The translations under genes were made by a program, and so were the position numbers. DNA of 63,218 bases, taken from positions 1 to 63,218 of IMG/VR virus record IMGVR_UViG_3300010354_000088, one strand, 5' to 3'. Under the pieces are notes generated by a model. That model made no database searches. It worked only from the letters and a program-made list of their open reading frames with translations, and was not told the DNA's origin. This document shows, piece by piece, positions 4,138-57,376 of this stretch (position 1 is its first letter; every line of letters begins with the position of its first letter). Origin of the DNA: a virus.

Positions 4138-5304
4138 TTATCCGATATATACAACGTATGCTACAATAGTAAATGGAGGACGGTTTTCATGAGCAGACCC
4201 AGTTCCTGTTACTCCGGTATTTCCAGAAATAGTATGAGTATGCGTAGGTGCTGAATCTGTCACAAAATTACATGTAGAGCCAGTTTGACCGCATTCAAGG
4301 CCATTCATTGTAGATCCAGAACCACCATTCTCTGCTGCTGCATCGTATTGATGAGTAACATTATGAGTATGAGCACCTGAAGCTGAATTGACTAAAGTAC
4401 CTGCTGTATGATCATGTGCAGGAAGCTGAGGTATTGTTAATGATACTGAATCAGCACCACTAGCAGCAGCAGCATCAACATGAGATTGCAAAGCAATATA
4501 ATTACCAGGAGATTGATAACCAACAGCAAAATAACCACTCATATCAGCAACTGTTACAGGAGTTCCTGTAGAATCAAGATATGTTCCTCCATTTGCCAAT
4601 ACCCAACCCTGCCAACAAGAACCAGCAAGACCTTGATTAGAAGGAAAATATGTGTTAAACTGAGTATTGTTACCTGCAAATATTGTCATTTCAAGGATCT
4701 TGTCCTTTACAGTAAATTTCAGTTTTTCATTAGTTCCATTAGCAGCAATAGTAAGCCTGCATGTATTTCCTGATTCTACTGCATCTTCAAGATAACTAAT
4801 AGTAGGATCAAGAGCATTTACATATACTTTACCAGCACCTAATAAAGCTGTATTTAAAGAAAGAGATACGTTTTCACCCGGATTTGCTTGTGTAACTACA
4901 AGCTCAGGAGATGTAGATGTTACTGCAAGAGTATTTTTAATATAAAAGTCTTTACCAGTACCACCTGTTCTTCCGGTAGAGTTATTTGCAGAAGTAACAT
5001 CAATAGCAGTATTTGGAGACGCAGGATTTTTAAATACATTAGGAAGTTGATGTGGCTGAACTACTTTAGAAAAACCATCTGCATCTACAGTGCTATTTCT
5101 GCTAATAGCATTAGAATCAATAGCTAATTTTGTAAATCCTTGAGCAGAAGTAGTAGCAGTATCATCTTTTTCTTTGATGAATCCTACAGAATCAAATAAC
5201 TGAACAAATGTAGATTGGGTAGGTTTATCGTACTTACGAAAACGAACACCTGGATTTCCTGTTACAAGGAAAAAGAAATTACGGAGATAACGTGGGCCGA
5301 CCAT
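4138..5304 (-). CDS. Tail fibre/collar protein with His-rich tip
   Basis: A 388-residue protein. The basic N-terminus (MVGPRYLRNFFFLV) probably attaches to the tail. A beta-rich shaft follows, and the C-terminal part resembles the phage tail-collar/microcystin-dependent-protein fold: a CWQGWVLANGGTYLDSTGTP segment near residues 240-260, IPQLPAHDH, and the terminal ENRPPFTIVAYVVYIG, which resembles the common 'N.PP...YIIYI' ending of such fibres. HxH motifs lie at about residues 297-299, 312-314 and 355-357, with further histidines near 318 and 372. In the T4 long-fibre tip, similar HxH motifs bind iron along a trimer axis. It follows the 165-residue gene by two bases and precedes the amidase. 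It is probably a receptor-contacting short fibre. Confidence 0.75.
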   Translation of the reverse strand: MVGPRYLRNFFFLVTGNPGVRFRKYDKPTQSTFVQLFDSVGFIKEKDDTATTSAQGFTKLAIDSNAISRNSTVDADGFSKVVQPHQLPNVFKNPASPNTAIDVTSANNSTGRTGGTGKDFYIKNTLAVTSTSPELVVTQANPGENVSLSLNTALLGAGKVYVNALDPTISYLEDAVESGNTCRLTIAANGTNEKLKFTVKDKILEMTIFAGNNTQFNTYFPSNQGLAGSCWQGWVLANGGTYLDSTGTPVTVADMSGYFAVGYQSPGNYIALQSHVDAAAASGADSVSLTIPQLPAHDHTAGTLVNSASGAHTHNVTHQYDAAAENGGSGSTMNGLECGQTGSTCNFVTDSAPTHTHTISGNTGVTGTGSAHENRPPFTIVAYVVYIG

Positions 5305-5306
5305 GA

Positions 5307-5804
5307 TTATATTGGTTTTTCTACTATGAATAATTCATTATTAGTTGTACAAGTATCAGGATATGTATCTTCAATAGCCATAAAATTAATTCCATCAGGG
5401 CTTAATTCAGAGTACATATCAAATGCTTGCAAAAGAGATTTAATATCAACATTCTTGCATAAAAAGTATTTTTTAATGCAATTTATATTGTATTCTGTAA
5501 GGTAATAATCTAAACCTTTATCAGTGTAACATGGAGGATTAGCCTCTGAATCCCACTTTCTTTGGTAATAAATTATTACTAGATAGATATAAAAATAATG
5601 ATAATCGTTAATGCTGTTAATGGCATTTTCAGCCTTATCTGGCATTCCAAATGTTTCAGCAGTATACCACTCCTGCATTAGGGCACTCATATTACCCCAA
5701 ATACAATCATAATAATCTACAGAATTTTGCTGTAAATCTGTTAAAGTAATGCTTGTATCACAACAATACAACGAATTATCTGGTAGTAACGGATCGCAAC
5801 TCAT
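5307..5804 (-). CDS. Hypothetical tail-region protein, Cys/Tyr-rich
   Basis: A 165-residue protein that I do not recognise. It begins MSCDPLLPDNSLYCCDTSIT and has eight or more cysteines scattered over its length. The central region (about residues 60-100) is helical and aromatic-rich (NDYHYFYIYLVIIYYQRKW) but is interrupted by charges and is probably not membrane-spanning. The N-terminal MSC with a nearby Cys pair also occurs in the upstream 636-residue protein, which it abuts exactly (5804/5805). I infer a small virion or chaperone protein working with the adjacent Cys-rich tail protein. Function is open. Confidence 0.55.
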   Translation of the reverse strand: MSCDPLLPDNSLYCCDTSITLTDLQQNSVDYYDCIWGNMSALMQEWYTAETFGMPDKAENAINSINDYHYFYIYLVIIYYQRKWDSEANPPCYTDKGLDYYLTEYNINCIKKYFLCKNVDIKSLLQAFDMYSELSPDGINFMAIEDTYPDTCTTNNELFIVEKPI

Positions 5805-7715
5805 TTAGCAAGATTTACAAGGTGTTGAATTTTGAGCAGGAACAACTTTACTACTGCACTCTCCACAACGATCAGTTACAGTTTTAATCTTAGTAAAGAT
5901 GCTTTGTATTTCTTGTATATTCAACATACGACATTCATCCATAGTAAATATACCAATATAAGAAAGCCTGTCTTTTTCAATATAAGCTATTAAATAACCC
6001 ATTAAAGCAACAAGTTTATTTACTTCAGCTCTTTGAAGTTTTAACTTTTCTTTCCGTGCTTCATTACAATCTTTACAACATGGATCTGCTTCGTTACAAA
6101 ATATATCTAAAATCAATGCTTTGTAACATGCTATAATATCACAAAGATCATAGATTACAAGGGTGTAAATATCTGAAGTTAGATTGTTTGTAATAGTTAC
6201 AGTGTAAATACCATCTTGAGGAAATTCTACGTCAACAAAGTTAGTAGTCGTACAATCAATGGTAAAAGTCTGATTGTAAGAATTGTCCAGATTTGTAATA
6301 ACCAAAGTGCTAATCTTACCAGAAGAACACTGACCTTCATCACTTATTTTATATTTATGACAGCTTGTAAGTGTATATTTATATTCAAAACAAGCTTTTA
6401 AAACAGCACTACAGGTATATTGTTGGAAGCAATCTCCATAAGTAAGAGTAATTGAATAATCTCCTATTGATGGAATTGTAAAACATTCATTTAAGAATAT
6501 ATATTGACCAGTAGGAGAATACGATTCATTAATTATTTCTTCTCCAGTGACAGTATTTAATACTACAAGAGTTGCAAAAGCTTCACAATTTTCTTGAGAT
6601 GTAGATACATTTATAGTACCATCTGCTGTAGAACAAGATAAAAGATTGTCAACAAAAAGAGTTGTTGTATTTGTTACAGGATCATAAGAATAAGACTGTA
6701 TAGTATAAGGCCCGTCATTACATGTAGAATCAGTAATGGTTATTTCTATTCCATCTACCAAACCAGCCCATTCACCTAATACAGATACGCTATTAACTCC
6801 TGGAGTGTTATCTGCTGCTGTAATAGGAAAAGTACGAATAGGAAATACTAAATTTTTAACTATACATACTTCATCATTTACATTACTGCAAATAGGATCG
6901 CAACCTATATCAACACTTTCTCCATTAATTTGCAGTATGTTGCAATCGCAAGTCAAACAATTATCTGTAATATATGTAGTATAATTAAGTGTTGCGTCTT
7001 CAGTAGAATTACATCTTGAAGAACTTACTCTTAATAAACATGTTCCTGATTCAGCTCCATTACCATTATATGTAATTGAAATAGGAGAACTTGTTGCACC
7101 AGCCAATAAAGTTACAGATCCAGATGGTAAAACCATTGACCCTGTGCAACCTGAAATAATATAAGAATATGTTTCCGTTACACAAGAATCATTAGTAATA
7201 GTAAAAGATTCTGTTTGACTATAACCCTGTTCAACAGAAAACACTATTGAAGTAGGAGTTAAAGTAAAAGGACTATTATCTGTTATTGTAATATTTATAG
7301 GAATATCAACATAACAGCATGTATTTGTACTTCCCGTTGTATCGGCTGTAACAAAAAATCTTAAAAAAGTATTATATACAACACAAGTACATGCATCAGG
7401 AAATGTATAATTACCTTTTATTTCAAAAGATTGATTTGGCCCTATTGCTCCAGTATTGTAACTATCAATAAGTAAGGTTCCGCCTAAATCATCAACAAAA
7501 CAAGGAGAACTTAAAGTAAGATTTACGCAGTTTCTTACAGATCCGTCAATCCATATTTCAGTTCCTACGTTTCCATTGGTTCCTGTAATAGTAAAATTAT
7601 ATACTCCAGACTCAGAACAACAATTAGAAACTATATTAATTGAAGGCAATGTTCCTCCAAAATATGTTGTTGCCGGATTAGAGCATGAAGGGTAAGTGGT
7701 TGCAGAACAGCTCAT
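5805..7715 (-). CDS. Large Cys-rich tail protein with Ig-like repeats
   Basis: A 636-residue protein beginning MSCSATTYPSCSNPATTYFG. The first about 450 residues are beta-rich and look like several Ig/BACON-type modules: strands such as YNFTITGTNGNVG, FTLTPTSIVFSVEQGYSQ and SITLTYGDC, with paired cysteines. The C-terminal about 100 residues differ: basic and helical, with the cluster EADPCCKDCNEARKEKLKLQ, then a C..C-containing end, which would suit attachment to the virion. BACON/Ig-like domains occur in crAss-phage tail proteins and are thought to bind carbohydrate, though I cannot confirm the family here. It is the first gene after the giant polymerase gene and opens the adhesin cassette. 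I infer a tail adhesin or tail-needle-associated protein. Confidence 0.6.
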   Translation of the reverse strand: MSCSATTYPSCSNPATTYFGGTLPSINIVSNCCSESGVYNFTITGTNGNVGTEIWIDGSVRNCVNLTLSSPCFVDDLGGTLLIDSYNTGAIGPNQSFEIKGNYTFPDACTCVVYNTFLRFFVTADTTGSTNTCCYVDIPINITITDNSPFTLTPTSIVFSVEQGYSQTESFTITNDSCVTETYSYIISGCTGSMVLPSGSVTLLAGATSSPISITYNGNGAESGTCLLRVSSSRCNSTEDATLNYTTYITDNCLTCDCNILQINGESVDIGCDPICSNVNDEVCIVKNLVFPIRTFPITAADNTPGVNSVSVLGEWAGLVDGIEITITDSTCNDGPYTIQSYSYDPVTNTTTLFVDNLLSCSTADGTINVSTSQENCEAFATLVVLNTVTGEEIINESYSPTGQYIFLNECFTIPSIGDYSITLTYGDCFQQYTCSAVLKACFEYKYTLTSCHKYKISDEGQCSSGKISTLVITNLDNSYNQTFTIDCTTTNFVDVEFPQDGIYTVTITNNLTSDIYTLVIYDLCDIIACYKALILDIFCNEADPCCKDCNEARKEKLKLQRAEVNKLVALMGYLIAYIEKDRLSYIGIFTMDECRMLNIQEIQSIFTKIKTVTDRCGECSSKVVPAQNSTPCKSC

Positions 7716-7752: not shown

Positions 7753-10700
7753 TTATTTTTTCGGCTTGCCAGTAGAAAGATTACCAGTAAGAACCTGACT
7801 TGTTTTATATAATCCAAACGCCTTTTCAGCCGCTTTATCCATCTGATCTACATCCAAACTACATGAAGCAGCTATAAACTCAGCATATTTACCAGCCTGA
7901 GTTATAGCAAAGAAAGGCTCTTTAGCTTTACTGTAGTATTCATTAGGAGAATATCCGCTAATAAGGTCTAACATACTGTAATTCATAGACTTACCTATTG
8001 GACTGCTCATTAATGATCTCCAGTATTGATTTTGATTTTCGTCATCATTATTAAACAAGGCCGGGAGAATAGCCAAAAACATAGATGAAATGGCAGCATC
8101 ATGCAATACTCTGGAGATATTCATTTTGCGAATATCTTTTTGCTTTTTCCACATATCAATAAGGCCATCATATTCAACTCCTTGAAATGTTTTTCTAGCC
8201 TCACGATAGATACCCATTACTGACTGAATAAGTCCTTCCATGTATTCTCCTTCAAAAACCACGTTTTTCTTAGTAACATTATCAATAGTTACATCTTTAA
8301 TAATGTAGTCTCCAATAGCAGAACTTTCATACCCTTCTTTATAAAGGTTTTGGGCTTTATCAAAAAGGTATTTACTAAACATAGTAAACATAGTTCCAAT
8401 AGAATGAGCATCCAAAGTAAGGGCTGTAGCATCGTCATAAGCACCGCCTGTAATAAACTTATCGGTAATTGTTTTTACAGAATCACGCAAACGGTTATCA
8501 AATGCCCTTGGAAGTTTAGCGTCAACAGACACGTCTCCGTCATAAACACCTTCATTTTGCATGTTTTTAAGAAGCTCTACTTTAAGAAGTTTGCCGTCTT
8601 CAGTCATTTTACCTTCTTTATAGATACGAGCATCTTTAGTCTCATCATAAACCAAATTGCCTTCTTTATCTAAACTATAAGCATCAAGAACACCTTTTTT
8701 GTTCATGTGAGCCATCATAGAAAGAGTTCTGATCAGATAATCACCTGCAAACTGACCCATATAAAGCATTCTGTCACTAAACAAATACTTCTTAGTTTTA
8801 AAGTGACGCTCATTATTAAGCAAGTTAGATCTATCCATACCAGCCATTTTATACTGGAATGCAAGTGCAATAGCAAGTTTAGGATTAGTTGAATATAATG
8901 CAATTGCCTTATTGACATCTCCTAATCCATAGAAGTTTTTAGCTCCAGCAATAGAGTTACTTACAGCAAAAGATTGTAAGGTAAGAGTGTTAGTCATTAA
9001 GTTCTTAAAGTCAGCAAGTATGTTTCCTCCAAGAACCCCTACAGAAGTAGCAGCACCAGTCATTCTGATCATATCGTCATACTTGACATCTACTACTTTA
9101 GATCCGGTATTAACTTTTAATCCTCCCTTCATTCTTTCACGCTGACCTAATACATTAAACTTAGCCATTTTACGCATGTACTCACGAAGGTTAGTTAATC
9201 TACCTTCTGTAGATTGATCGCTATGTTTTGATTCATAGTTATGCATCAATGTCTGAGCAGCATAATAAACAGCATTGGTTTTATCTACCTCTTGCTTTTG
9301 GTAATGGTTCATCATATAGTAAGCCATTACTACTTCAAGGTTTTTTTCTACCTGATTTTCATTGGCTTCAATACTTGATTTTATTTCTTGTTCAGTAGAA
9401 CCAAATACCTTAATAGCTCCATTATCAATAAACAAACCTATTTTACTCATTCGATCAACAGATCCAAGATAACTATCACCAAGCTGATTACTGAAAATAT
9501 CCATAAAATCAGTTCCACCTTGCTTAGCTGCATCATTTACATATTCAAAGAAGTTATTTGAATTTGAGTATTTAGAAGCCCACTGAGAAAGACCTTTACG
9601 CCAATCTTTACTGAATATCTTTTCTGAAGCACGACGCTGCATAATAGGAACCATTCCATCTTTCCAATTTGCATCATATTGATTTTCAGCATCTTCTCTC
9701 TTCATTCCACTATTTACCTTTTTAGTAATAATAGCTTCTTTAAGAGTTTCTACAATATAATCACCTAATGCAACTTCTTCTTTAGATATCTCATATTTTT
9801 TAAGAGCTTCTATAGTTCTAGGGTTTTTACTATTATGAATGTAATAAGTGTTTACATCATAAGTGTTACCAAGATTATCAGTAGCTTTTTGTTTGATAAA
9901 CAATCTATCAAATCTCTTATATCCAACATCTGTAAGACTTACAGTAGTACCTCCACCAATAACTCCATTTAGGCCATTAACATATTTTTTATTAATGTCA
10001 GAAATTAATGCATTCATCTTTTTCATGTGGGCCATATAGCGGTTTTTACCCGTCTCTATAGCACTCATGATATCAGTACGATACATATCAAATACCGGAT
10101 TTCCGATATTATAGTTAAGCAAACTATATTTACCTAATGAGTCAATGTCAGTTAATTTTTCTATTGATTTCTGACCTTTTGTTTTAATTTGGAACAAAGC
10201 ATCAGATAGATATTTCATTTCTTCATTGTTAACTATCTTGCCTTCGTCGTTCTTGTAATATCTCTTAATTTCATTGATACGATTAATAATTACACGTTCA
10301 ACGTCAGCAGAGAATATATCATGACCATGTGCCTTAGTCTGTATTCTTGATATTATATCTTCATATTTATCAATTAATTGACTAGGGATTTCATTATTAT
10401 CTTCTGCTTGTTTAAAATATCTTTCTTTCAAATCATGATATGCAGAAAGAAGAGATTTTACATAGTTAACTTCAGGAGCTTTAAATGATTCTGGATTATC
10501 AACAAGAGCTTTTAGTTCAGGACTCATAATGTCATAAACAACACGACTCTTGAGTAAATATTCCATCTCTTTAAGATAATCATGGAATGCAATGTCGTAA
10601 CTCTCAGAATGAAAGCCATCTGGCTTGATTACAGACATCTTTTCAAATACAATAGAAGGATCTTTTGCTTTCATTGACATAGCCAAAAGCATAAGATTAA

Positions 10701-13700
10701 ACTTCCTCATACCTTCTTGAGTCTTGAGAAGACTGAATTTATTTTCATAAATCTTAGTAGGATCTATCTTAGATATAAAATCTGCAAGATATTCTACATT
10801 GCCAGAAGGAGTAAGTCTTTGATTAAGATAAGCAGTAGTCATATCCATAAGAGATACATATTTAATACCATCTCTTTCAGAAACTACCACAAAAGGATCA
10901 AATGTTTTTGTGTCAAATAAACTTGAATTAAATCCAGAATCAGACAATAAACTAATCTTATCATTAGGATTAATAGCAAACTTACGTTTAATCCATCCTT
11001 TGTTAGATTCAATGTTTTTGTCAAATTGAGGATCAGCACCCATTAGGTAGTCTCTAAACTGACCTTTTATTTTAGATTCGTATTCACCACGCTTAGATAT
11101 AATTTCACGAGCTATGTCTTTGATTTGATCTCTATTGTTAAGATTTTCAAGTTCATATACTTTTCCATTTGATACAAATCTGTAATTACCATGGTTATTA
11201 TATGAATAAGACATACCAGTAAAAATAGCGTTAGAAAGCTGATTTACTGCATTTTCATTATTTACATCATTAGTAGCTTGACGTACATCTGTTCGTGCCA
11301 TAGCAGAAACAAGATCTACGTTGTCGTTTACTTTATCAACTTTAAATCCAACACCATAATATGCTTTTAATTGGTCTTCGTTAGGAGTACCTTTTTCTTC
11401 ATTTGCTTTAGAAAATTCAGCATCAGTGTTAAATACTCTAGCCATTTGATTCTCTAAGTATGTGTCTTTAAGAGCAATTTCAAACATTGAATCGCCTTCA
11501 AGATACACAGAGCTTACAGACATAATTTCATCAAATACACTTTCCATTTCAGGAGTTCTTTGAATATTAGCTCCCGCAGTTGAAAAGAAGAAATTTTTAA
11601 CTGCACTTACAAATTCACGCCAAACATCTTTAATACCCATCTTAGCTACTTCAGGATTCATAGCCGGAATAGTCATAAGGTGCTGTTGGAAAGATTTATG
11701 TGTAAATGCCTCAGTTACAAACTCTCTTGTGTTCTTAAATGGATATTCAAAGTCTTTGTTTGCAGATTTAGACTTAGTGTATTCATAAAGCTTAGTTATA
11801 TATTGAGCATATGTTCTTTCATCATTTGTAAGCTTTTGATTTTTTTCAAAACGCTGCAATACATCGGCTGTTATGCCATGATTCATTTCATGAAGAACAA
11901 ATCTTTCAGTTTTAACGCTATTGTCTGCTTCATCTGTATTAATAAATATATCATATTTAATAACTCTTCCTTCAGAATCTTTAACAGGTCTCCACACACC
12001 ACCCATTTTAGTTGGGCGGTCTTTCATGCTAAATAAACCAGGATTTTGAATTTCAGATAAAAACTCAATGTTGCCTATACTAAGTTTTTTACTAGAATAT
12101 GAATCAAGCATAGCTTTTGCAAGCAAAGCATGAGGCATGTAAAGACTATTTTCAGATACATGTCTTAATACATCTACCTGATCATTCATTCCTAAATAGT
12201 CAATATTAAGCTGACGATTATAGTTGCTTATATCGCTTCCATTAGCAGAATCAATAAATCTCTTTCTTTCTGCAAAATCAATTATATCGGCAGAAGAAAA
12301 CTCTGCATCAGCAGATACACCTTCAGAATGATTAGCATTAGCAGATTGAAGATTTTTAATAGAAAGACTAAATCCAGTCTTTCCTTCTCTTTGGAATTTA
12401 GTAAGCTCTACAATCTGTCCATTTTTAAGATAATAGAAACCATTATTGTATTTTCTACCTACATCAGTAAACAGATTTGTAATTTCATTAGGATTAATAC
12501 TTGTACGGCCAGTATTCATCAAGTCCTTAATCCTATTCATAGATACAATATGCAAAGACTTATGCATGTTGTCTATTCCAAATACTTCTTGAGCTACAGA
12601 GTTTTTAGTCCATCCTGAGAGCATATTAGACACTTTATTGTCTATACGCACATATCTATAAACAGGATTTTCTTTAGAAGCACCTTGCACAATTTCAGGA
12701 TCTTCAATTTTAACCTTCTTGAATGCTCCAAGATATTTCTTTGTAGAATACGCTTCAGTAAATTCTGCTGATTTTCCAGTAATATGACCTGAAATAGGTG
12801 TCCAAGCTTGAACGTAATCCGGGAAATCAGCTATATCTTTTGCATTTTGATTTACTGACGTTCTGTAAATAGGAATCAATCCTCCTTTATAAACAATTCT
12901 TCCTTCCTTGTCCTGAACTTCATTAAGTTGAAAGTCATTTTTAGTATTGGAATCTTTAGTTATACTAGGAAGATTGCCTAGCATATGAACAGCTAATCTA
13001 TCAGCATTATTACCACCATATCTCATGGCTATATTGTCTGCATAGATATTACTAGCTTTAGGATCAAGTCTTTTGTCAGTATTAAGCCATACGTTCATTT
13101 CATTTAAGAAATCATCGTATTGTACTAAATTGTCTTTATTTACAATAGACATTACAGAACCTTTTCTTACTATACCGCCGTCTGTAATAATACTATATAC
13201 AGAAAGACGTTTACCAAGATCAATGCCAGTAATATTATAAATAGCTTGTAAATCATCTTTTAACTTACCTACATAAGATTCATCAGCTCTGTTAAGATCT
13301 CTAAGATTTATGTATTCATCCTGATTTTCTTTAACCTCAACCGTAACATCTTTAAGGAAAGAATTAGTAATATTTCCTTCAGAATCAACAAGAGTTCCTG
13401 GCGTAAGCTCATATTTTCCAGGATTAGTTTGCATATCCCGGATAAGGTCATGAGTGGTAATAATAAATTCAAGTTGACCTGTAGGAGTCCCTACATTTTC
13501 AACTTCATTAGGATTAATTCTGTTTTTAAGACCTACAACATCACCATATTTCTCAAGATACATAGTAGAAATTACTTTCCATCTTGCAGACATAGCACTG
13601 CCATACTCGTCTTTATTATAGAATCGTGGTTTTCTTGCTTGATTTAAAAATGCTTTATCAAGATTTCTAAAGACTGGATTTTGAACCGTCTGAACCTTTT

Positions 13701-16700
13701 GCATTTTATTGTCAAAATCTACCCAAGCATTAATAAAAGATTTAATGTTAGGTAGTTTGTTAATGAGCTTTTCTGTATTGACAAAGCTTTTAAACAAATC
13801 ATTTTCACGTTTAGCAAGATCGTACTCAGAAGGAATATCTATTTCACGTTCTATTCCGGAAATCATAGCTTTCTGACTTCTCTTTTCATAGAATCTGATA
13901 TATTCATCAGGACGAACTAATTCATTAAGATTTTCAAGATAATCGTAGGTATCCCAATCACCGAACTTAACACCTTGATTAACAGAAAATACTTTAGCTA
14001 ACTTAGAAAGTCCTCTTCCAAGAGCCATTACATCTGCTACATGACGAGCTTTTTGAGAATAGTCATTAAGCCATTCTATTGTTCTGTTAAGATCGTATTC
14101 TATTGATTCATCAAGTTCAAGTTCTTCTTTTGCAGAAGATTCACTAGTTATTTTAATACCTCCATTTTCAGCTATTTCAGCCATTTCTTGATTTTCAGCT
14201 GCTTTATCAGCTTCACTTTTCAAGACTTTTCTTGGAATGTATCTTGATTTAGTGCCAAATACCTTAGAAATATTATCAACTTCTTCTAAGAAAGATTTAA
14301 TAATTTCATTTCTTTTCTTAACGTCAGTTGTAATTTTTAGAGTCTCATTAAGCTCAAAAATTCGTGCTTTATAAGTCTCAGCCATGTTCATCCAAGAAGT
14401 AGCTACTTTTTGAGAATTTCTTGATTTTTCATCTATATCTCGTCCGGCTTTAATATCATTAATAATATTAGAAACCTTGTAATCAGATAAAAATTCAACA
14501 ATTTCCATGTCTGATACACCAGCAAATTTCATTGCCATAGCAGCACTTGCTGTTGTTGGGTCAATTCTAAGTCTTCCCAAAAGATCAAGTTTACCATTAT
14601 CCACGGCAGCTTGAAGAAGACCAGCCAATGAATCCATAGTTAAGTGACCACTATCAACTCCAGTAACAGGATCTATATTAAAGAATCTTCTGTAATTTTT
14701 ACCAAGAAGATTAATGTTAAAATGATCTCCTTTAACCTTGCTAAATGCATGGTATATGTGCGAATAAACTTTAATACCATTAGCAAATATACCGGGAGTC
14801 TCAACACCTGCATTAAATGACTCAAACTGACGAGTATTAGTAACTACGTCATTTAAGAATTTAACAGCCTGAATTGAAGATACATTGCCTTTTTTGAGCA
14901 TGTTTTCTCTTATTTGCTCATATACGGATTCAAATTGATCTGTACTTACAGGACTTGTTACTGATGTAAGGTTATCAACATCATTATAATGGTCTATTGC
15001 ATTTTTAATAACTACGTTTACAGGATTTTTTTGATAAATACTTTCATATTCACCTTCTTCAATTTTACCAGAAGAAGATCCCATAAGAAGATTTTCTCCA
15101 TAGTTAGGTAAATCCAAATGATATACATGCAATTCGTCAATGTCATAGTCAGATCCATCTATAATGTTCTTTTTAGAAGAAACAAGAATAGTGTTTGAAA
15201 TGTCATTGTCAAATGCTACAATTTTACCTTTAAATCCAGACGAAGACTTAGAAGCAGGAACACGGTTAATAAAAGCATCTCTTGTTAAAATAAATGCTTC
15301 CATGTAATTAGCCATAGAATCTGCAAACTGATATCTGTCTTTAATTTCTCCATTTTTAGAAAGTTCAATTTTATTGTCTTTCATTAAAACGTCAGAAGCT
15401 AAAGATCCTTCAAGCTGATTCAAAAGACCAGCAAGAGCCATTCTTCTGTCTTCAGGACTAGATCCAAGATCTTCATACATTACTTCAGATCCATCTCTGA
15501 GTCTTAATGTAACAAAATCATCGGCATCAAACTTCTTGTAGTAAAATTCACTATTTGGATTATCGTCAAGACCAAACTTTCTGAAATTAGTAAATGACAT
15601 TACTACTTCATACGGTTCAATTTTACCACCTGATTGCTTTATGTCAGATACAATTTTATTTCTTTGCTCTGGAGTAATATCAGGAGTTTTAACCATTGTC
15701 ATTACACCATCTACATCTGCAAAGTTTTCAGCTATCTGTTCAGGAGTAAGAATGTCTTTTAAATAATCAAAAGACTCAACATCTACAAACTGATCTCCTG
15801 ATTTAACATAAGCCTTCATTGCACGAAGACCTTCATTGTCTTTTGTAAATGAATTAGCTGCGTCAGGATATTTCTGAATGAATTTGTCATATTGAGCAAG
15901 TGTCATTCTTTTCCCTGCTTTATAAGGCCCGATATCAGTAGTAAGAGTAAGCATCTCTACTAATTCTCCAGGATACTGTACGTTTGAACTTGCTGATTTA
16001 ATTTCAGGTTTAATACCCTTGTTAAATTCATTAGCAAAAGCAATACGAACAGGATCTGTAAGACCAGGAAGATTAGTGCCAAAACGAGGATCATTTAAGA
16101 TCTCCATTCGATTACCTACCGCTACTTTAGTTCTGTCAGCTACAAATGACTTAACATCAGTAGAAGATTCTGTAGATTTAGATATATCGTCACTTACTCT
16201 TGATACATTTTCAACCATAGCAGACATACTTTCTGCTGTACGATTGTAGTTATTTTGACCTACAAACAATGTTGTAGATGCCTGAGTAGGATTACTTGCC
16301 TTTTGATCTCTTGCTTCTTTGTTCAAGTCAAGGACATACAATCTTGTGTTGTAGTCCATATCAAAAGTTGATTCTTCTCCATATCTTTCTGCATTAATAT
16401 CAATAACTGAAGCACCATTTATTGTTTTAGCTACAGTAGTAGGCATAAGACGAGATAAATATGTATCCCGTATATCTATAATTCTTCCATCTTCAGTAGA
16501 AACTTGACGTGCAGAACCGCCTTCAAACATCCAATCAACAAGCTTTGCATCGTCCATTCCAAACTCTTCAAGCTTATTCCAAAGAGTGATAGACTGTCCG
16601 TTATCTATAAAGTTAACATGACTCATCATCTTTCTTTCTATGTCCATAATCTCCCTACTGTTCTTTCTGTAAGGCTTTAAGTTCATAGTAGAAGACTTCA

Positions 16701-22700: not shown

Positions 22701-25700
22701 TTGAAGAAGCAGTAAGGAGAACCTTATGATAATCTGTAATATCAAAAATGTCTCCTTTTTTAATATTTACATATACACGTTCAAACTGAAATCCTTTGGC
22801 TGTTGTTTTATCGCCAAGCATTGTTCTTACAGAACCTTCAAGAACAGACTTGTCAATACCTGAACTAGACAATGTATTAATAAGCTCTAATCTATCAGCA
22901 TCTGTAGCTACAATAAATACAGTTTTTCCTGTAACGCCGTCTTTCTTTAAATCAGAAACAAAACTGTCAAGCTGCTCTTTTTGTGCTTTAAATTCATTTC
23001 CACGAAGTTTAACACCTTTTGTAGCATATCCACTTTCAGACTCAGAATATTGAGTAGAAGGATAAAGAATTTGAGCCTCTTTACCACCTTCAACGTAAGG
23101 CTCTCTAAATGCTTGCTGAATACGAACAATATCATAAACGCCTGAACGATGAACATCTGTAACAGGAGTTGTACGCTGAGATGTCAATCCAGGAGGAGTA
23201 AATGTTTCTCCACTTGATATTTGACTTTCATCAATAAGCTGAATAACCTTAAATCCTTTTTCTAAAGCTTGTTTATTAATAGTCTCTACTTGCTCTATTG
23301 TAAGTTCAGAAGCCTCGTCAATTACAAGAATACGGTCTTTAGTAGTATCAGTTAACTTATCTACTTTACCATTTAATACTTGTTCAAGAGATACAGATTC
23401 TTTATTTTCTGCATTTATTGATATAGACTCAATAGAGCTTTTTAGGTTTTCTACCTGACGAGAATGAGCTGCTGTAAATACAATATTAGAAAACTTAAAA
23501 GTAGTTGATTCTGCTTTTTTAACGGAATGATATATATCCATTATAGCAGGAAGCATAACTTTTGTCTTACCTACTCCGGCAAATCCAAGAACAGAAAGTG
23601 TATTTTCAAGGAAAGGAACAAGCTTAGCTGTTTTTGTTGAAACCTTAGCACCTGAAATAGAAGGATCCATTAAGAATGCAACTGATTCATAAACAGCTTT
23701 TTGCTGTTCAAAAGAAAGAGCTACATGATTAGGATTTTTAGTCTTAGAATACTCGTTCCAAGCATTGTATCTTTCCAAGAAAGATTTTGGAGATAAACGC
23801 TTGATATTGGTAATATTTTGAATAAATGTAGTATATGCATGAGCATTTAAACTAATATTATCAGATGCCAAACTAGACTCAAATTGTTGTACATCTCCGT
23901 AATACCAATATCTGTTATTTTCGTCTTTTACTTCTTTAGCTTTGGAGTTTACAGCTCCAAGAGCAAGAGGTTCAAGTTCAGTTCCTTTTTTGCCTTTAGC
24001 AAAAGTATTAGTAATATCTTTTACTAATCTTTCGTAAAGACCATTACCTTCTTTAGAATTAAAGATATCGTGTAGTTTACTTTCCGCAGATACTATATGT
24101 CCATAACTCTTATAAACAAGAGATGCAATTTCATCTTTTTTCTTATAATACTCTTCTTTTTCAGCATCAGAAGCTTCTCCACGGTTTAATTTATCATTAA
24201 GATCTTTTGCTCTATCTGCAACAGCATTTTGCTCATTTAAAGTATCAACGTATTTAATTAAATCGTCATTTGCAGACTGCAAAGCATCTTTAAAATCTTT
24301 AGAATAACCGCCAGTAATTATAGTAAGATGGTCAATAGTTCTTTGAGCTATATTATTTCTAAGATCAGCATCTCTTAATACAAAATTAGCATCAAACAAC
24401 TGTCTTGCTACAGAAGATATATTTAAAGCTTTGAATTTAAGCTTTATTGCTTTATTGAAAGACTCTACAAGTTTATTGTGTATGCTTCCTTTATTAGTAG
24501 GATCAAGATCAGATTTTAAAGGAGTAATGTTTTCATTAAGGCCGCTTACCTGATTATCAAGTTTACTATAAACAGTATCATTTATAGCAAGAATTTCAGC
24601 GTTAGATGCAATGTTATTTATAAGTTCATCAAGCATTGCAGCATCATTGGGATTAGAAAAATCGGATTGCTCCATTTTACTAAGAATATCCTCAAATGAT
24701 ACAAAACGAGGTTCTTCAGCAGTACCTCTGTTTACTGAAATATATGCATTTTCAAGAATTTGTCGTGGAGTAAGATTTCCTTTTTCAAATACCGAATTAG
24801 CATCAGCAGACATTTGTTCGTTAATAGAACCTAATTCTCTTAATGAATTAATTTTTCCTTTATATAAAGAATCAAATTCTGCTTTACTTTCACCAGGAAC
24901 GCTAAGAGCTACATCATTAATTGTAGCAGTTTCTTCATCATAATCAACTTTATATTTATCTGAAATCTCTTTCATTAATTGAGATTCCACTTCAGAATAT
25001 TTATTCTGAACTTCGTTAAGCATATTTTCAAATGCTGTCTTACCTAAAGCATCAACACCTACACGAAGATTACTATTATGAAGATTTTGTATTCTACCAA
25101 TTAATTCCGGAGTTACTCCTGCTTGCATATCAGCAAGAATAGATGTAAGCTCATTTGTATTTTCACCTCTTTGTTGTGCTATTACAGCAGGATCAATAAC
25201 CTTTTTTAAAGATTCATTTAATGCATCAACTGTATCAGAACCTACAGTAATAGCTTTATCCCCAAATTCTGTCTTAAATGAACTTACTTTAGGATTGAAA
25301 ATGTTAAATAAAGGATTTCCATCTTTATCTTTTGCTGAAAAATAATGAGCAGTAAGCATTCCGCTACGAACAGCTTTAGCTTCTACCTTGCTAATTCTTT
25401 TTTGCTTAGTAGCGTTTTCAACACGAACAGTTTCTTCAAAATCAGCTATAAGCTCAGTCTTTTTAGAAAGTTCTTTTTCAAGCTGAACACGCTCATTATC
25501 AGTAATTGTAGTGTCTTTAAGACGTTCTTGAATTTCATTTCTACGAACAATTATCTCAACAGCCTCTTTAGCAACTTGTGTAGGATCAATTACTTTATCA
25601 AGTAGTGCAGAATAAGATTTATCAAAATAATCTTTTAAATAACGTTTACCCTTGTCTTTAGCATTTTGATGCCATTGCTTAATGCCGGATTGTTCATAAA

Positions 25701-27891: not shown

Positions 27892-29823
27892 TTATTTGAT
27901 ATTTGGAGTATTTTGATAAGAACCAGCACCTTGAGATTGCTCAACCTGTTGATTTACAAAGCTATTAAATGCATCTTGTAAGACTTGTTGCTGATAATCT
28001 ACATTTCCCTGAAACTGCTTATCTGTTTTAGCTTGATATCCCATGAACGCATTTGCCGGAATACTTACTGTTCCTTTCCAATCTTCTCCACTTTCATATA
28101 TACCAGCAGCTTCTCCAGAACCAGAAGTAGAATCGTAAATTCCCAAACTATACCAAGAAGAACTTGTAATTGGCTCTTTTTCACCAGTTTCAGGATTTAC
28201 AATTTGATAATTACCAGTACGATCTTCATCTCCAAAATTTACATTAACATCCATGTAAAGTTGTGGGCCATATTTTGTAAGATTAGCTTTATCTGCTTCA
28301 GTTAATTCTTGACCTGATTGTTCTTTTGCTTTGGCAGCGTCATAAAGAGCTTGTTCAGATTTATTTATATTTCTCCATTGTCCATTTTGATCTTGAACCA
28401 TTGGTGATTTGTAAGAAAATCCAGCAATACCTTCAACCATTGGATTTACTTTATCTGTTGTATTTAATACAGTTCCATTTATCATCATTCCTGTATTACC
28501 AAAAACTTGAGTAAGAACTTTAGGAGATTGCTGTAACTGTGCATTTAAATCTCCATAAGCATCATTTACTGCTTTTCCATAAAACTGCCCTCCTGTTTCA
28601 GGTTTTAAAGTAAATGTTCCATCTCCATTATCAACATATCTATTATAACCAACACCTTCAGCCGAAGCAGATATTTGTCCATTTAAAAGTAATTGAGTAA
28701 AACCAAGTTCTTCTTGTTTTTTATCTCCATATCCAAGACCTTCTGCTGTTCCTAAAACATCATATGTTTGCTCATAAGAACTCGATGTAGCTTCAAATGG
28801 TTTGGTTCCCTGACTAACTCTGTCAATAGTATAAGCATCAATTACTTGTTGACGATATGCTGTATCAGAATCAAATTTATCGTAATCTACCGTTTCTGAT
28901 TTAAATGTAATTTTTCCATCTTTGCTTTCCACTGGCATACTAACAGAAACAGCTCTTTTGCCTTCTCTTCCATCGTAGATTTCATTCAAAATGCCATCTT
29001 TTGCATCTTGAGAAAGATTGTTATACAAAACACCAACTGCTGCATTTAACTGTTCTTTATTTGAAGAATATCCTTGCTTTACATAAGTAATATAATTGTA
29101 AGCATCATATCCTTGCATTACATCTGATCCATAATAATATTGACCAGTATTAGGATCATATTTAGGAGTAAGACCTTTATTTTCACTAGATGTAGATTTA
29201 GCTTTTTCATATAATGCAAACATTTCATTGTTTACAGTTTTGCTATCTCCACGGGTATAGTTAAAATCCATAGCAAGAAGCTCACCTGTCTGAGGATCAT
29301 AAGCTCTGTCTTTTGCCCTCATTTGAAGCATATCTTCATTTGTGGCAGATCTAATGTTTCCGTTTTTATCTTTAAAATAAATAGGCTTCCCATCTGTGCC
29401 AAGATACCTTACATTGGATTTGCCTTCTTGTGTAACAGAAGCACTTGCACCTTGAAACCTTTTTTTATTTGTTTCTCCCATTTCAAGGTTATATTGTGTA
29501 ATATTTAATCCAGCAATATCCTTTTTACCTTCTTCAGAATTAGCATAAATACCCCACAATCCACCATATTTTTCAACGCCTTTTTTAATGTCATACATAC
29601 TTTTTTTGTACATTAATTCAAGAACATCTTTTTGACCCGGAAGAGCGTCTGCTTTAAACTCAGGAAGTTCTGGCTTTGCTGTAAGTCTTTTAGCTAAATC
29701 AGCATCAGCAGCTTCTTTCTTTTTGTAGTAATACTCTAAAGGGCCTAAATCAAGGCCTCCAGATGTATCTGCTGTAAGAAAAAGGGGGCTTGATGATTCC
29801 CCCATGGTATTAAATAATGCCAT
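27892..29823 (-). CDS. Probable cargo (ejected) virion protein
   Basis: A 643-residue soluble-looking protein rich in Gly, Asp, Asn, Gln and Tyr. There is no signal peptide, cysteine cluster or recognisable enzymatic motif. The N-terminus (MALFNTMGESSSPLFLTADT) is mildly hydrophobic; the region around residues 25-95 looks helical and Lys-rich; the Gln-rich C-terminus (QQQVLQDAFNSFVNQQVEQ) looks like a flexible tail. It lies between the 783-residue protein and the giant polymerase gene. In crAss001 the equivalent place holds the cargo proteins packed in the capsid and tail barrel. I assign cargo by position only. Confidence 0.55.
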   Translation of the reverse strand: MALFNTMGESSSPLFLTADTSGGLDLGPLEYYYKKKEAADADLAKRLTAKPELPEFKADALPGQKDVLELMYKKSMYDIKKGVEKYGGLWGIYANSEEGKKDIAGLNITQYNLEMGETNKKRFQGASASVTQEGKSNVRYLGTDGKPIYFKDKNGNIRSATNEDMLQMRAKDRAYDPQTGELLAMDFNYTRGDSKTVNNEMFALYEKAKSTSSENKGLTPKYDPNTGQYYYGSDVMQGYDAYNYITYVKQGYSSNKEQLNAAVGVLYNNLSQDAKDGILNEIYDGREGKRAVSVSMPVESKDGKITFKSETVDYDKFDSDTAYRQQVIDAYTIDRVSQGTKPFEATSSSYEQTYDVLGTAEGLGYGDKKQEELGFTQLLLNGQISASAEGVGYNRYVDNGDGTFTLKPETGGQFYGKAVNDAYGDLNAQLQQSPKVLTQVFGNTGMMINGTVLNTTDKVNPMVEGIAGFSYKSPMVQDQNGQWRNINKSEQALYDAAKAKEQSGQELTEADKANLTKYGPQLYMDVNVNFGDEDRTGNYQIVNPETGEKEPITSSSWYSLGIYDSTSGSGEAAGIYESGEDWKGTVSIPANAFMGYQAKTDKQFQGNVDYQQQVLQDAFNSFVNQQVEQSQGAGSYQNTPNIK

Positions 29824-29834
29824 TTTTCTTTTTA

Positions 29835-32186
29835 TTAAATAGTTCCAGGAGTAACTCCGTTTTCTTGAATAGGTGTAACTAATTTAGAAGGATCAAAATT
29901 ACCGCCTGTAATAGCATTAATTCTTTGAACTTCTTCGGGAGTAAGCTGATCAGGAGTATTTAAAGCTTTTCGATAAAGCTGTTCGTTAATTTGACCTGCT
30001 TTATATCCTTGCTCAAGAGCCTTCATTCCAAAATCAGCATTAACATAATTTCTAAATCCTTTTAATCCAGATTCAATATTTTGACTTAATGCCTGACCTT
30101 TCATAGCTCTAAACTTAAATCTGTTTTCAGCATCCTGAAGATTAACATTTTGAATGTTCTGAAGATTAAGAAGATTAGCCTGATTAGTCAATTCTGTATT
30201 ACGATAGTTAAGCTCATTTTGCATTTGCTGCATTTTAGCTGCTCTATCTATTTGATTTTCAAGCTGATTAGCCTGAATAGCTGCATTTGTAGCAGGTATT
30301 TGATTTACATTACGAGCATTATATCGTGATGTAGCTCCTACTTTTTGAATTTGACGATTCATAAATTCATCCAAAGCACCAAAATCAGCAGTATATTTTT
30401 CAGGACGATACATCTGAGGTCTTGGCATTGGAGTATATTTTTGCATCATATTATAAAGAGCCTGACCACCTGCACCTACTGTATTAGCAATAAGAAGATT
30501 TCTATTCATTTTTTTAAAATCTTCAGGCAATCCTGTAGTTGTGCTAGTTTCAGGTGTTTCAGCAGTAGGCTGCTGATTATTTCTCATATTAATTTCTCTT
30601 TCAGAAGAATAATCGGGATCATTAAGTTGAGCTTCTTCTTCTTTACGCATAGCTTTCATTTCTGATGGACTATAATTTTCATCACGATATTGTTGACTAC
30701 GCATATTATTATACCACCAATCGGCTATCCCTCCATCTGCATGTCCTTCTTTAGCTTTTATTTTACGCTCCTGCTCAAGCATTTCTTTTGTAGGTTCTTT
30801 TCCGGAACCTTTATTTGCACGCATATTATCCCAAAGACCTCTGCGTGAATATGAGCCATCAGCACGTTTAATCATTTCTCCGCCTTGAGAATATTCATCA
30901 TTATTGGGGCCACCATTTTTAAATCTTCCCATAGCAAATAATGTAGGACTAAGCTTTTGCTTATTCATAACATTATGCTGTTCGTTTACATATTGATTAG
31001 TTCCTTGGCTATCCCATTCTGAAGATTCATTTTCAGACATGTAATCTCCTTTATAGTAACGATTATGAGGACTATTTGGACTAAGAGTTTTTTCCCAATC
31101 GTGCTCTGTCATCCCCATATCTAATTGAAGATCTTCTTTTACATCAGGAGATATATACATTTCTTTTGAAGATATACGAATAGGAGTACCTCCTTGCTTA
31201 GCACCAGGAACCATTGTTTCTAACTCTTGATATGGATCATATCCTGATTGCATAAGCATTTGTTGAGCTAAAGGAACACGGTTTGCCGGAACAATAAAAG
31301 CACCATCTTCTGCCAATAAGTTTTTATCATCAGCAGTTGGACTTCCATTTCCAGGAATAATACCATATTCATCTTCCATGTCTCCACCTTCTGCATATCC
31401 ACCCATAGAATATGGAGCTGATGAATTATTTAATATGGCATCACGTTCAATAGAATACCCTATACCACCACCGTCAGCATGTTTTAATTCAGGATACTTA
31501 GCATATACTTTAGCTTTTACATCACTACGACCATGAAGACCAGCAAGACGTAAAGCATCAACCGCATCGGCTTTAGTTGGAATAGGATAAGAACGATTTC
31601 CTCCGGCAAAATCTTTGCCTTTTACCATAGGATACGGTTTCTTTTCAGATCCATAATCTTTAGATCTTGAAAGTCCACCTTCTTTATAAGCCTCAGATTC
31701 TCCGCCACCTTGCTGATTATTATTTTCATCCATCTGAAACTGAGAAGGATCATCTCCAAGCATTTTCCAAATAGGAACTTTGCCTCCATTAGCAAAGTTA
31801 CCTTGCATGTAACCAGTTTCTGTATTATAAGGAGATGCTTGACGTTGCTGTTTTTTTACAGCTTCACCCATCATAGCATTTACATCGTAACTATTATCCA
31901 TAGCACGATTAAACTTCCATGCATCAATAGCTAGTCCAGCTACAGGAGCAATAGCAGCAGAAAGACCTCCTGTAGCACCCATAATAGCTGGATTTAATCC
32001 AATAGATGTAAGTTGTTTTGTAGTAGAAAGATCGGCTTGAGGGCCCTGCATCATAGGCATTTGCGGTTGCATCTGGTTGGGCATAACCATGCTGCCATTA
32101 GCATATTTTTTCTTAGGCAGATTTCCACCTGCCATATAATACAAATTAGCCATGTAAAATAATTTTACTTTATCTTCTGGTTTCAT
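29835..32186 (-). CDS. Probable cargo virion protein with repeated GG motifs
   Basis: A 783-residue protein. The N-terminal third has a hydrophobic Ala/Gly-rich segment (GATGGLSAAIAPVAGLAID, about residues 53-72) that could insert in a membrane. At least eight short motifs ending in Gly-Gly preceded by an acidic or Asn residue are scattered through it (for example FANGGK, YKEGGL, HADGGG, YAEGGD, FKNGGP, HADGGI). One segment reads LLAEDGAFIVPANRVPLAQQ. The C-terminal 250 residues are Gln/Asn-rich and predicted helical. Its ATG overlaps the ferritin stop by four bases. The position between muzzle/ferritin and polymerase matches crAss-like cargo proteins that pass down the tail with the DNA. The role of the GG motifs is unknown. 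Confidence 0.55.
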   Translation of the reverse strand: MKPEDKVKLFYMANLYYMAGGNLPKKKYANGSMVMPNQMQPQMPMMQGPQADLSTTKQLTSIGLNPAIMGATGGLSAAIAPVAGLAIDAWKFNRAMDNSYDVNAMMGEAVKKQQRQASPYNTETGYMQGNFANGGKVPIWKMLGDDPSQFQMDENNNQQGGGESEAYKEGGLSRSKDYGSEKKPYPMVKGKDFAGGNRSYPIPTKADAVDALRLAGLHGRSDVKAKVYAKYPELKHADGGGIGYSIERDAILNNSSAPYSMGGYAEGGDMEDEYGIIPGNGSPTADDKNLLAEDGAFIVPANRVPLAQQMLMQSGYDPYQELETMVPGAKQGGTPIRISSKEMYISPDVKEDLQLDMGMTEHDWEKTLSPNSPHNRYYKGDYMSENESSEWDSQGTNQYVNEQHNVMNKQKLSPTLFAMGRFKNGGPNNDEYSQGGEMIKRADGSYSRRGLWDNMRANKGSGKEPTKEMLEQERKIKAKEGHADGGIADWWYNNMRSQQYRDENYSPSEMKAMRKEEEAQLNDPDYSSEREINMRNNQQPTAETPETSTTTGLPEDFKKMNRNLLIANTVGAGGQALYNMMQKYTPMPRPQMYRPEKYTADFGALDEFMNRQIQKVGATSRYNARNVNQIPATNAAIQANQLENQIDRAAKMQQMQNELNYRNTELTNQANLLNLQNIQNVNLQDAENRFKFRAMKGQALSQNIESGLKGFRNYVNADFGMKALEQGYKAGQINEQLYRKALNTPDQLTPEEVQRINAITGGNFDPSKLVTPIQENGVTPGTI

Positions 32187-32746
32187 TTAAAGTCAAGATC
32201 AAGGAATCTCATAGCCATCTTATCTTCACCAAATGTTTTAAGCTTATCCATGTAATTTTGGACTTTACCCAATTCTTCTTGTTGCTCTTGCATATATTTC
32301 ATAGCAAGTTGATAAAGAAGATGATTGTTATATTTTAAAGAATGCCCAGCTAAAGCATTACATTGCTTAGTCACATTTATTTCATGTGAAAAAGTCATTT
32401 TAATTATTTCTGGAAATCCCTCAAAATTTTGAGGAGGCTCATTTAAACTTGGAATTTTAGGCTGAATGCCCATGTCCAAAAGAAAATCTTTAGCCCATTG
32501 AGCATGTTTCATTTCATCTTCAGCATCTTCTTGCCATTTTTTTGCAGCATTTAAATAACCATTGTCATTTAGCCACATAGACATAGAATGATACATACGA
32601 GAAGAATATTCTTCTTGCTCAATTCTATAATTCAACAAATCTATACATTCTTGAGAAAGAAGATTGTTGTTTTCTGTGTATTGCTCTTTTGGAGTGGCAG
32701 ATCCGCCTTTTTCTTCAAAAACAATTTTAGAGTTGTTGTCTGACAT
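32183..32746 (-). CDS. Ferritin (non-haem, FtnA type) encoded in the tail module
   Basis: A 187-residue protein. After a charged 28-residue extension it aligns by eye over its whole length with bacterial ferritin FtnA. All ferroxidase ligands are present: Glu46 (EEYSS, equivalent to FtnA Glu17), Glu78 and His81 (AEDEMKHA; Glu50, His53), Glu122 (SHEINVT; Glu94), and Gln155 and Glu158 (QEQQEEL; Gln127, Glu130). Third-site positions carry Asp77 and Glu154. Ferritins oxidise Fe2+ with oxygen or peroxide and store it in a 24-subunit shell, which also limits Fenton damage. It abuts the muzzle gene by one base and overlaps the cargo gene, so it is co-expressed late with virion proteins. It could protect phage DNA late in infection, hold iron, or be packaged; no virion-targeting signal is apparent apart from the N-terminal extension. 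Confidence 0.9.
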   Translation of the reverse strand: MSDNNSKIVFEEKGGSATPKEQYTENNNLLSQECIDLLNYRIEQEEYSSRMYHSMSMWLNDNGYLNAAKKWQEDAEDEMKHAQWAKDFLLDMGIQPKIPSLNEPPQNFEGFPEIIKMTFSHEINVTKQCNALAGHSLKYNNHLLYQLAMKYMQEQQEELGKVQNYMDKLKTFGEDKMAMRFLDLDFK

Positions 32747-39148: not shown

Positions 39149-39964
39149 CTAATCTTGAGCACACCCAGTAAGGTAAGCAGTAAATGCAGCTTGCATTTCT
39201 GTGTACCAGTATGTAGTGTAAGCAGGATCAGTGTTTTTCACATAAAAATAAACCTCTTCTTCGTAACAGTTAAAGGCATTAGCTTGGCTAATATCCTGAA
39301 CGTCACAAGATTTACGAACTTTAAAATGATAAACACAGTATTCACCGCAGAAGCCAAGTGAAGGACGTGATCCTACAAAGCCCCACTGAATAGGGAACAA
39401 CTTAGCAATATCTTGGTTAGAAAGAACTGCATCAGCATGTGCTGTAATTGTAGTTACAGTTCCAGCATCAGTAAATGCCTGGAAACCGCATGTAAGCTGA
39501 CAGTTCTTTTCTTCCAAGAGAATGCAAGTACCCGCTGCACTTGGAGTAAATACACTAGCAACAAATGTTCCTACTGTAGCAGTAACCGTAGCGTTAGGAT
39601 CTGCATTGATGTTGCTTGCAACAGCAGTAGCAGTTTCGTTAGCAGTAGGTGTAGCTCCAGATGGATTTTGATAACCATAGTATTTGCTAGAACCAAATGT
39701 TTGCTGAACTTCATAAGAAGTCAAGCAAGGCAGACTCTTAATCAAAAGAGGCCACTCATAAGGGCATTCGCATGAATCAGGGATACTAACGCATACTACA
39801 GTTTGCTGCTTTACGCAAGCAGATGGACACTGACAGTAAGCATTAAGAATATCAGCAAGCAGGATGTCACCATATCCTTGTACGGTAACACCTCCTGCGA
39901 TAGGCACAACTGTTGAAGCACTAAGGCTATCAATCAGGATTTTTGTTGGTTGACGTAACAACAT
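39149..39964 (-). CDS. Putative virion structural protein, Cys-rich
   Basis: A 271-residue protein with at least a dozen cysteines, including the clusters YCQCPSACVKQQ and PDSCECPYEW in the first 75 residues. The middle (about residues 100-150) is Ala/Thr-rich with NADPNATVTATVG, like a beta-sandwich shaft. The C-terminal part is aromatic, ending in an amphipathic helix (MQAAFTAYLTGCAQD). It lies between the membrane protein and the ring-type protein at 40003, inside the head-tail module. The cysteine content suggests disulphides formed outside the cytoplasm or a metal site. I infer a virion component (tail hub, collar or capsid decoration) but do not recognise the family. Confidence 0.5.
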   Translation of the reverse strand: MLLRQPTKILIDSLSASTVVPIAGGVTVQGYGDILLADILNAYCQCPSACVKQQTVVCVSIPDSCECPYEWPLLIKSLPCLTSYEVQQTFGSSKYYGYQNPSGATPTANETATAVASNINADPNATVTATVGTFVASVFTPSAAGTCILLEEKNCQLTCGFQAFTDAGTVTTITAHADAVLSNQDIAKLFPIQWGFVGSRPSLGFCGEYCVYHFKVRKSCDVQDISQANAFNCYEEEVYFYVKNTDPAYTTYWYTEMQAAFTAYLTGCAQD

Positions 39965-57120: not shown

Positions 57121-57376
57121 TATGTACAACTCATATAAAGAAATAAATGACCTTGAATCTGAGGTCAAGAAATATACAGATACAAAGATTATGTCTCTAA
57201 TTGAAAAAGAATCAGAAACATTCCAAGTATATGTAGAGAAAATTAGAGCTGAAATATTTCAGAGAACAGGAGATATTACAGTTAGCGTGCATGGACAAAT
57301 AGCTGATGAGATACATTTAATTGTATTAAAAGAAGTATCAAGGCGATGGGTAATACTAAAAGAATGCATCGAGTAG
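57121..57376 (+). CDS. Small helical protein upstream of the radical-SAM gene
   Basis: An 84-residue, highly charged, helical protein (MYNSYKEINDLESEVKKYTD..., VSRRWVILKECIE). The region KIMSLIEKESETFQVYVEKI and the following residues look like a continuous helix able to form a coiled coil. In-frame starts also exist at 57044 and 57077, but both would overlap the preceding small gene, so I prefer 57121. It overlaps the radical-SAM gene by 31 bases, so the two are probably co-translated. It could be a partner of that enzyme; no motif proves it. Confidence 0.45.

Follow-up and report, generated by a model that had tools for sequence, protein, structure and literature searches.

Why would a giant phage protein that holds an RNA polymerase (RNAP) also hold, downstream of the polymerase, an HExxH metallopeptidase motif, and what might such a peptidase cut? 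The question is raised by the giant open reading frame (ORF) of a 63,218-base virus record (IMGVR_UViG_3300010354_000088), the whole of which is henceforth referred to as the window. The window gives matches to phage structural families (terminase, portal and head proteins) and its terminase shares ~30% identity with Crassvirales terminases. The giant ORF is a putative crAss-like virion transcription/cargo protein in which RNAP, zincin and C-terminal module form a single chain. The parts of the giant and two candidate cargo genes are as follows.

7753-27825, minus strand: giant ORF, 6,690 aa, uninterrupted and with one cysteine (ORF list, composition)
23140-23592, minus strand: SF1-like helicase/AAA_30 domain in the N-terminal part of the giant, residues 1412-1562 (PF13604, E 2.6e-9, above the cut-off)
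15136-15150, minus strand: RNAP catalytic motif DYDID, residues 4226-4230, the equivalent of DFDID in phi14:2 gp66
11446-12207, minus strand: zincin (gluzincin-type) metallopeptidase domain, residues ~5207-5460 (profile, AlphaFold2 model, structural alignment)
8011-10908, minus strand: C-terminal module, residues 5640-6605, conserved in other crAss-like giants
27892-29823, minus strand: 643-aa ORF without cysteine that adjoins the giant, a candidate cargo/ejection protein by composition and gene order (position of ΦcrAss001 gp46)
29835-32186, minus strand: 783-aa ORF without cysteine, likewise a candidate cargo/ejection protein by composition and gene order (position of ΦcrAss001 gp45)

In the giant, 1,086 residues separate the DYDID motif from HExxH, compared with 1,064 when gp66 and gp65 of Cellulophaga phage phi14:2 are joined end to end, and the distal part of the C-terminal module matches the C-terminus of gp65, and the last 200 residues of the giant match gp65 as well; because of this spacing and these matches, we regard the giant as a fused gp66+gp65-type protein with an extra N-terminal part. 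The window thereby holds the two elements by which a Crassvirales virion RNAP module is recognised, a GSDxDxD-motif RNAP and a gp65-type partner downstream, and packaging of this module in the virion is known for phi14:2 and ΦcrAss001 relatives. A sister contig of 65,216 bp encodes a giant of 6,603 aa that is 27% identical to the window giant over its full length. The AAA_30/SF1 helicase-like region upstream of the RNAP is also conserved in other crAss-like giants. Only one cysteine occurs in the 8,116 aa of the giant and the 643-aa and 783-aa ORFs combined, and N4-like virion RNAPs (vRNAPs; n = 3) have none; such a near-absence of cysteine would suit proteins that are unfolded for ejection. 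Cysteine-rich ORFs without a Pfam match are found in the same genome at 5805-7715 (minus strand, 41 of 636 residues) and 39149-39964 (minus strand, 15 of 271). Other observations in this crAss-like phage are a ferritin/Dps-like protein encoded among the virion/cargo genes (32183-32746, minus strand; PF00210, E 1e-19) and a spore photoproduct lyase-like radical SAM protein (57346-58221, plus strand; PF20903, E 4.5e-21).

An earlier note on this DNA had read LHEMNHG in the giant as an HExxH metallopeptidase motif and had looked to the downstream TREFVTEAF for the third zinc ligand. Both readings hold: LHEMNHG occupies residues 5311-5317 and contains the sole HExxH of the giant (0.05 expected from shuffling), and TREFVTEAF (residues 5366-5374) contributes a glutamate, E5368, that is invariant among relatives. 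The residues of the site are given below.

11878-11892, minus strand: HExxH, with H5312 (codon 11892-11890), E5313 (11889-11887) and H5316 (11880-11878), kept in 23 of 23 relatives
11722-11724, minus strand: E5368, assigned as third zinc ligand, in an N-x-x-E-F motif, kept in 23 of 23 relatives
11743-11745, minus strand: Y5361, seven residues before E5368, candidate transition-state tyrosine, kept in 18 of 23 relatives

When the surrounding 500 aa were compared with phage records by tblastn, eight records of three kinds only were recovered, namely the virion RNA polymerase of Acinetobacter phage Presley (E 1e-5), a 2,307-aa Rhizobium-phage protein and phi14:2 gp65; all three kinds carry HExxH and then x-x-E-F, though none had been picked for the motif. 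Tblastn of the RNAP region and of the C-terminal module against phage records gave no matches, and thus the zincin is the best detectable part of the giant beyond its nearest relatives. Only four columns are invariant in a ten-sequence alignment of the domain: H, E and H of HExxH, and the Glu of EF. A wider set of 23 sequences, taken from crAss-like and N4-like phages, podoviruses and IMG/VR contigs, leaves these four unchanged in every member, with F5369 (22), F5379 (21), T5319 (19) and Y5361 (18) the next most conserved. The second Glu of TREFVTEAF, E5372, was considered as a zinc ligand and rejected, because N4-like members do not conserve it. With a profile made from 21 relatives, from which the window and the sister giant were left out and in which the HExxH and third-ligand columns were masked, residues 5293-5423 of the giant still score 66.8 bits (single-sequence E 1e-22) and the sister giant scores 39.7 bits, whereas the highest score among 200 shuffled giants is 7.6 bits; the homology is therefore independent of the motif, and the intact site is a separate result. 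No named family in Pfam, PHROGs or NCBIfam is matched by the window domain alone; in PHROGs it matches only the unnamed phrog_37402 (E 3e-7), and other members match phrog_2206 ‘virion RNA polymerase’. Related-locus searches with the 500-aa region or the ten-member alignment returned no loci. Open frames of ~3,400 aa in IMG/VR contigs (L034, L036 and L037) carry the same zincin and may be further virion RNAPs.

A zincin fold was recovered for this region by AlphaFold2 run on a 15-sequence alignment. Over model residues 121-240 the pLDDT of ten-residue blocks is ~76-96 and mostly 85-96, and the elements of the model follow in zincin order, from a helix through three strands to the helix of HExxH and, further on, a helix that carries the third ligand; in model numbering, the predicted helix 109-133 holds HExxH at 118-122 and the helix 172-181 holds E5368. 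Structural alignment with VIA-align placed chain A of 8vb2, the ΦM1 ejection protein, at the top (Z 9.1, spanning 156 residues); the next were YbeY (6.2) and the lethal factor (LF) metalloproteinase (5.4). Foldseek alone gave no match at E <= 0.001, and so the structural support comes from Z-scores of 5-9. Compared with solved structures, the sequence profile matches 8vb2 (E 7e-12), the internal virion protein 9sfn (7e-11) and N4 vRNAP chains (7e-5 to 1e-3), in the last case over residues 2218-2341 of the full-length chains (E 6.7e-5 to 8.2e-5). A zinc-site geometry is predicted from the modelled fold and the conservation. Overall, the domain is confirmed as a true gluzincin-type zincin, part of a giant phage protein of the ejected type, with its site intact and conserved.

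We surveyed 23 crAss-like records with profiles for the RNAP motif, for the downstream zincin (Z2) and for Z1, a different HExxH domain before the RNAP that was first noticed in four related giants (residues 1580-1715 of the partial ORFs L021, L024, L025 and L026) and in ΦcrAss001 gp47 (residue 2157; L038). With TAG read as sense in some genomes and with profiles built from HExxH-bearing members, an RNAP motif was detectable in 22 of the records, and each of these 22 genomes retains one or more intact HExxH domains close to the polymerase: twelve have both Z1 and Z2, five have Z1 only (ΦcrAss001, cr85_1, cr118_1, cr50_1 and cr124_1) and five have a Z2-type domain only (phi14:2, cr116_1, Fpv1 and two contigs). 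By profile, ProJPt-Bp1 has neither RNAP nor zincin. Z1 precedes the RNAP in most crAss-like phages and is absent from phi14:2 and the window; the window and the sister giant have Z2 only, and a profile search of the window gave no zincin ahead of its RNAP. The third ligand of Z1 is less clear and its structure model from relatives was poor (mean pLDDT 50). In cr116_1 it is the Z2-type domain that precedes the RNAP, and ΦcrAss001 gp49 lacks HExxH and shows the end of the zincin domain only as a faint trace. Losses of Z1 and Z2 look complementary. RNAP and zincin lie on separate genes, with HExxH and the Glu intact, in phi14:2, cr1_1, cr10_1 and cr272_1. A match of cr124_1 to the Z2 profile, far from the RNAP and with stops nearby, is probably spurious. 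Tandem Z2-type zincins with both sites intact were observed in one 1,206-aa open frame, in cr10_1 (L017, 12013) and L066 (1588).

Beyond the homology, zincin fold, site invariance, RNAP neighbourhood and retention on separate genes that are established here, we think it probable that the domain is a competent zinc peptidase, enters the host along with the polymerase by ejection and then acts in trans, and that it is not a virion maturation protease. H5312, H5316 and E5368 would bind zinc, and E5313 would activate water for proteolysis. The zincin would be packaged in the capsid within the crAss-like transcription cargo, of which this particular protein is presumably a part, would be threaded into the host together with the polymerase and would then cut a host or co-ejected protein in the envelope or the cytoplasm; such a cleavage would help entry or early takeover. 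A point against a catalytic role is that the C-terminal half of N4 vRNAP, zincin included, inhibits and contacts the polymerase, and by analogy a purely regulatory role is possible.

The earlier note had raised the possibility that the peptidase breaks up its own chain, in the capsid or after ejection, to yield pieces with the polymerase, the helicase and the pore, or that it cuts host proteins at entry. A precedent for an in-virion maturation protease is P1 DdrB, a packaged zincin-bearing protein whose processing precedes its packaging (Iyer et al. 2017, PMC5512222), but the homologous N4 vRNAP is packaged unprocessed (PMC5512222), and the purified protein, with 3,500 residues and 383 kDa, is intact with ‘no evidence of degradation’ (PMC12633501). 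The cargo of ΦcrAss001 likewise fits near-full-length gel bands: gp47 (which carries Z1), gp49 and gp50 are virion proteins of 262.5, 154.5 and 276.9 kDa (PMC10172136), and the bands of ~150, 270 and >300 kDa in the virion gel (PMC6235969) fit the masses of intact gp49, gp47 and gp50, the match of band to protein being by mass. Furthermore, phages that encode polymerase and zincin on different genes still have an intact active site, so that the sole job of the zincin cannot be to free the polymerase from a fusion. The domain also occurs in ejection proteins in which a polymerase is not annotated. Cutting in the virion is thus very unlikely, and this part of the earlier proposal is not supported. 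Self-cleavage after ejection, in which the refolded zincin would cut the linker between RNAP and zincin/C-terminal module in the host cytoplasm and free an RNAP held inactive, fits several observations: the C-terminal domain of N4 vRNAP autoinhibits the RNAP, an invisible 23-residue linker lies just before the zincin subdomain, crAss phages have a gene boundary in this region (HExxH comes 245 residues after it in phi14:2 and 431 residues after it in cr272), and HExxH motifs flank the RNAP on both sides in some crAss-like giants. We nevertheless find it rather unlikely, given that the zincin is intact in the four phages in which this linker is already a gene boundary (phi14:2, cr1_1, cr10_1 and cr272_1) and that full-length N4 vRNAP is undegraded when purified.

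Two further readings were weighed. The zincin fold could be non-catalytic or mainly structural, and either hold RNAP and C-terminal module together as a metal-stabilised clasp or signal packaging; the N4 C1 domain does form a salt-bridge clasp with the RNAP, and the zincin region of N4 vRNAP is required for encapsidation (Iyer et al. 2017, PMC5512222), a need that may be independent of catalysis. This seems quite unlikely to us, as the general-base Glu is invariant in 23 of 23 relatives along with the zinc ligands and the domain is also found in proteins without a recognised RNAP (ΦM1 gp48 and the phiNV3 and PP16-type internal virion proteins). Alternatively, the domain could cut peptidoglycan peptides or a periplasmic protein while the ejection channel assembles, and both its presence in ejectosome proteins (the ΦM1 tetrameric ejection protein and internal virion proteins) and the lysozyme-domain fusions described by Iyer et al. 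2017 (PMC5512222) would agree with such an envelope enzyme. We consider this extremely improbable, since the N4 domain binds the RNAP, which works in the cytoplasm, and the fold is that of protein-cutting gluzincins. The known peptidoglycan endopeptidase families M15 and M23 differ in fold from protein-cutting gluzincins. Extending the reading of a trans-acting peptidase, we tentatively suggest, as a possibility about which we are still doubtful, that phages which eject giant proteins use this zincin as a general entry peptidase, which was joined to two virion RNAPs unrelated to each other (of N4 type and of crAss type) as well as to internal virion proteins, and that at least one active copy is kept before or after the crAss RNAP, with complementary losses, because a host or channel protein must be cut early in infection.

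The zincin of N4-like vRNAPs was recognised by Iyer et al. 2017 (PMC5512222), who proposed autoprocessing or host targeting; the same proposal for the N4-type zincin was repeated for Pectobacterium phages (PMC8472413), and HExxH was noted in a 2025 N4 structure paper. The crAss-like phage literature that we searched contains no relevant mention of a zincin, zinc, a protease or a peptidase; Yutin et al. 2018 and Drobysheva et al. 2021 were outside this search and may have one. The link between crAss-like and N4 zincins, the invariant site and the intact HExxH domain near the RNAP in all 22 crAss-like genomes with a detectable RNAP motif are apparently new. The human gut virome is dominated by crAss-like phages, whose very large cargo proteins act after ejection in ways that are largely unexplained. 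Should the cargo peptidase be active, conserved and common to the ejection proteins of N4-like phages and podoviruses, a single catalytic mutant of a phage that is easy to work with (N4 in E. coli K-12 or phi14:2 in Cellulophaga) would test the need of entry for proteolysis, and substrate trapping could also show the cleaved target.

Among known systems, the M34/PPEP gluzincins (lethal factor endopeptidase and Pro-Pro endopeptidases) resemble the window domain in having HExxH and a Glu third ligand, and we liken Y5361 to the Tyr that stands seven residues before the Glu ligand in zincins of this type. No M34/PPEP family model in Pfam or NCBIfam was matched, and the resemblance to LF is at the level of the fold only (Z 5.4); for the domain of phage CB1, PPEP-2 has been given as a Phyre2 match (PMC8472413). 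PPEP-like proline-proline self-cleavage sites were considered for the giant and dropped, as it has three PP and none is position-matched with the sister giant. MPTase-PolyVal (PF18818) is likewise a zincin of long multidomain proteins delivered by phages or plasmids, and its set includes the N4 MPTase (Iyer et al. 2017, PMC5512222); the PF18818 model gave one match among ten members of our domain (E 0.039) and none at its own cut-off. The tetrameric ejection protein gp48 of ΦM1 (8vb2) is the best match both in structure and in sequence among solved structures and keeps HExxH and the Glu; unlike the window giant, it has no RNAP annotated in the chain. Residues 268-528 of gp48 were published as an endolysin/exotransglycosidase-like domain; residues 380-508 of 8vb2 chain A, within this Asp268-Asp528 region, are matched by the zincin profile and retain both HExxH and the Glu, and the published assignment may be wrong.

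The window zincin is homologous to the zincin of phi14:2 gp65 and to the C1 domain of N4 vRNAP. The former, annotated as an RNA polymerase associated protein of Crassvirales, has HEIMH and NVHEF and follows the RNAP gene gp66; it is a separate gene, whereas its counterpart in the window is fused to the RNAP. The C1 domain of N4 vRNAP gp50 (residues 2124-2375; PDB 9pnq/9pnr/11gp; profile homology E 8e-5) likewise has HExxH and sits between RNAP and C-terminal domain (PMC5512222; PMC8472413). In N4 vRNAP as in the window giant, the zincin is directly C-terminal of the polymerase in a giant of the packaged, ejected kind. However, the N4 polymerase is a T7-like single-subunit enzyme, whereas that of the window is of the unrelated crAss double-psi-barrel type with DYDID, and the window giant is twice as long as N4 vRNAP and has a helicase domain.
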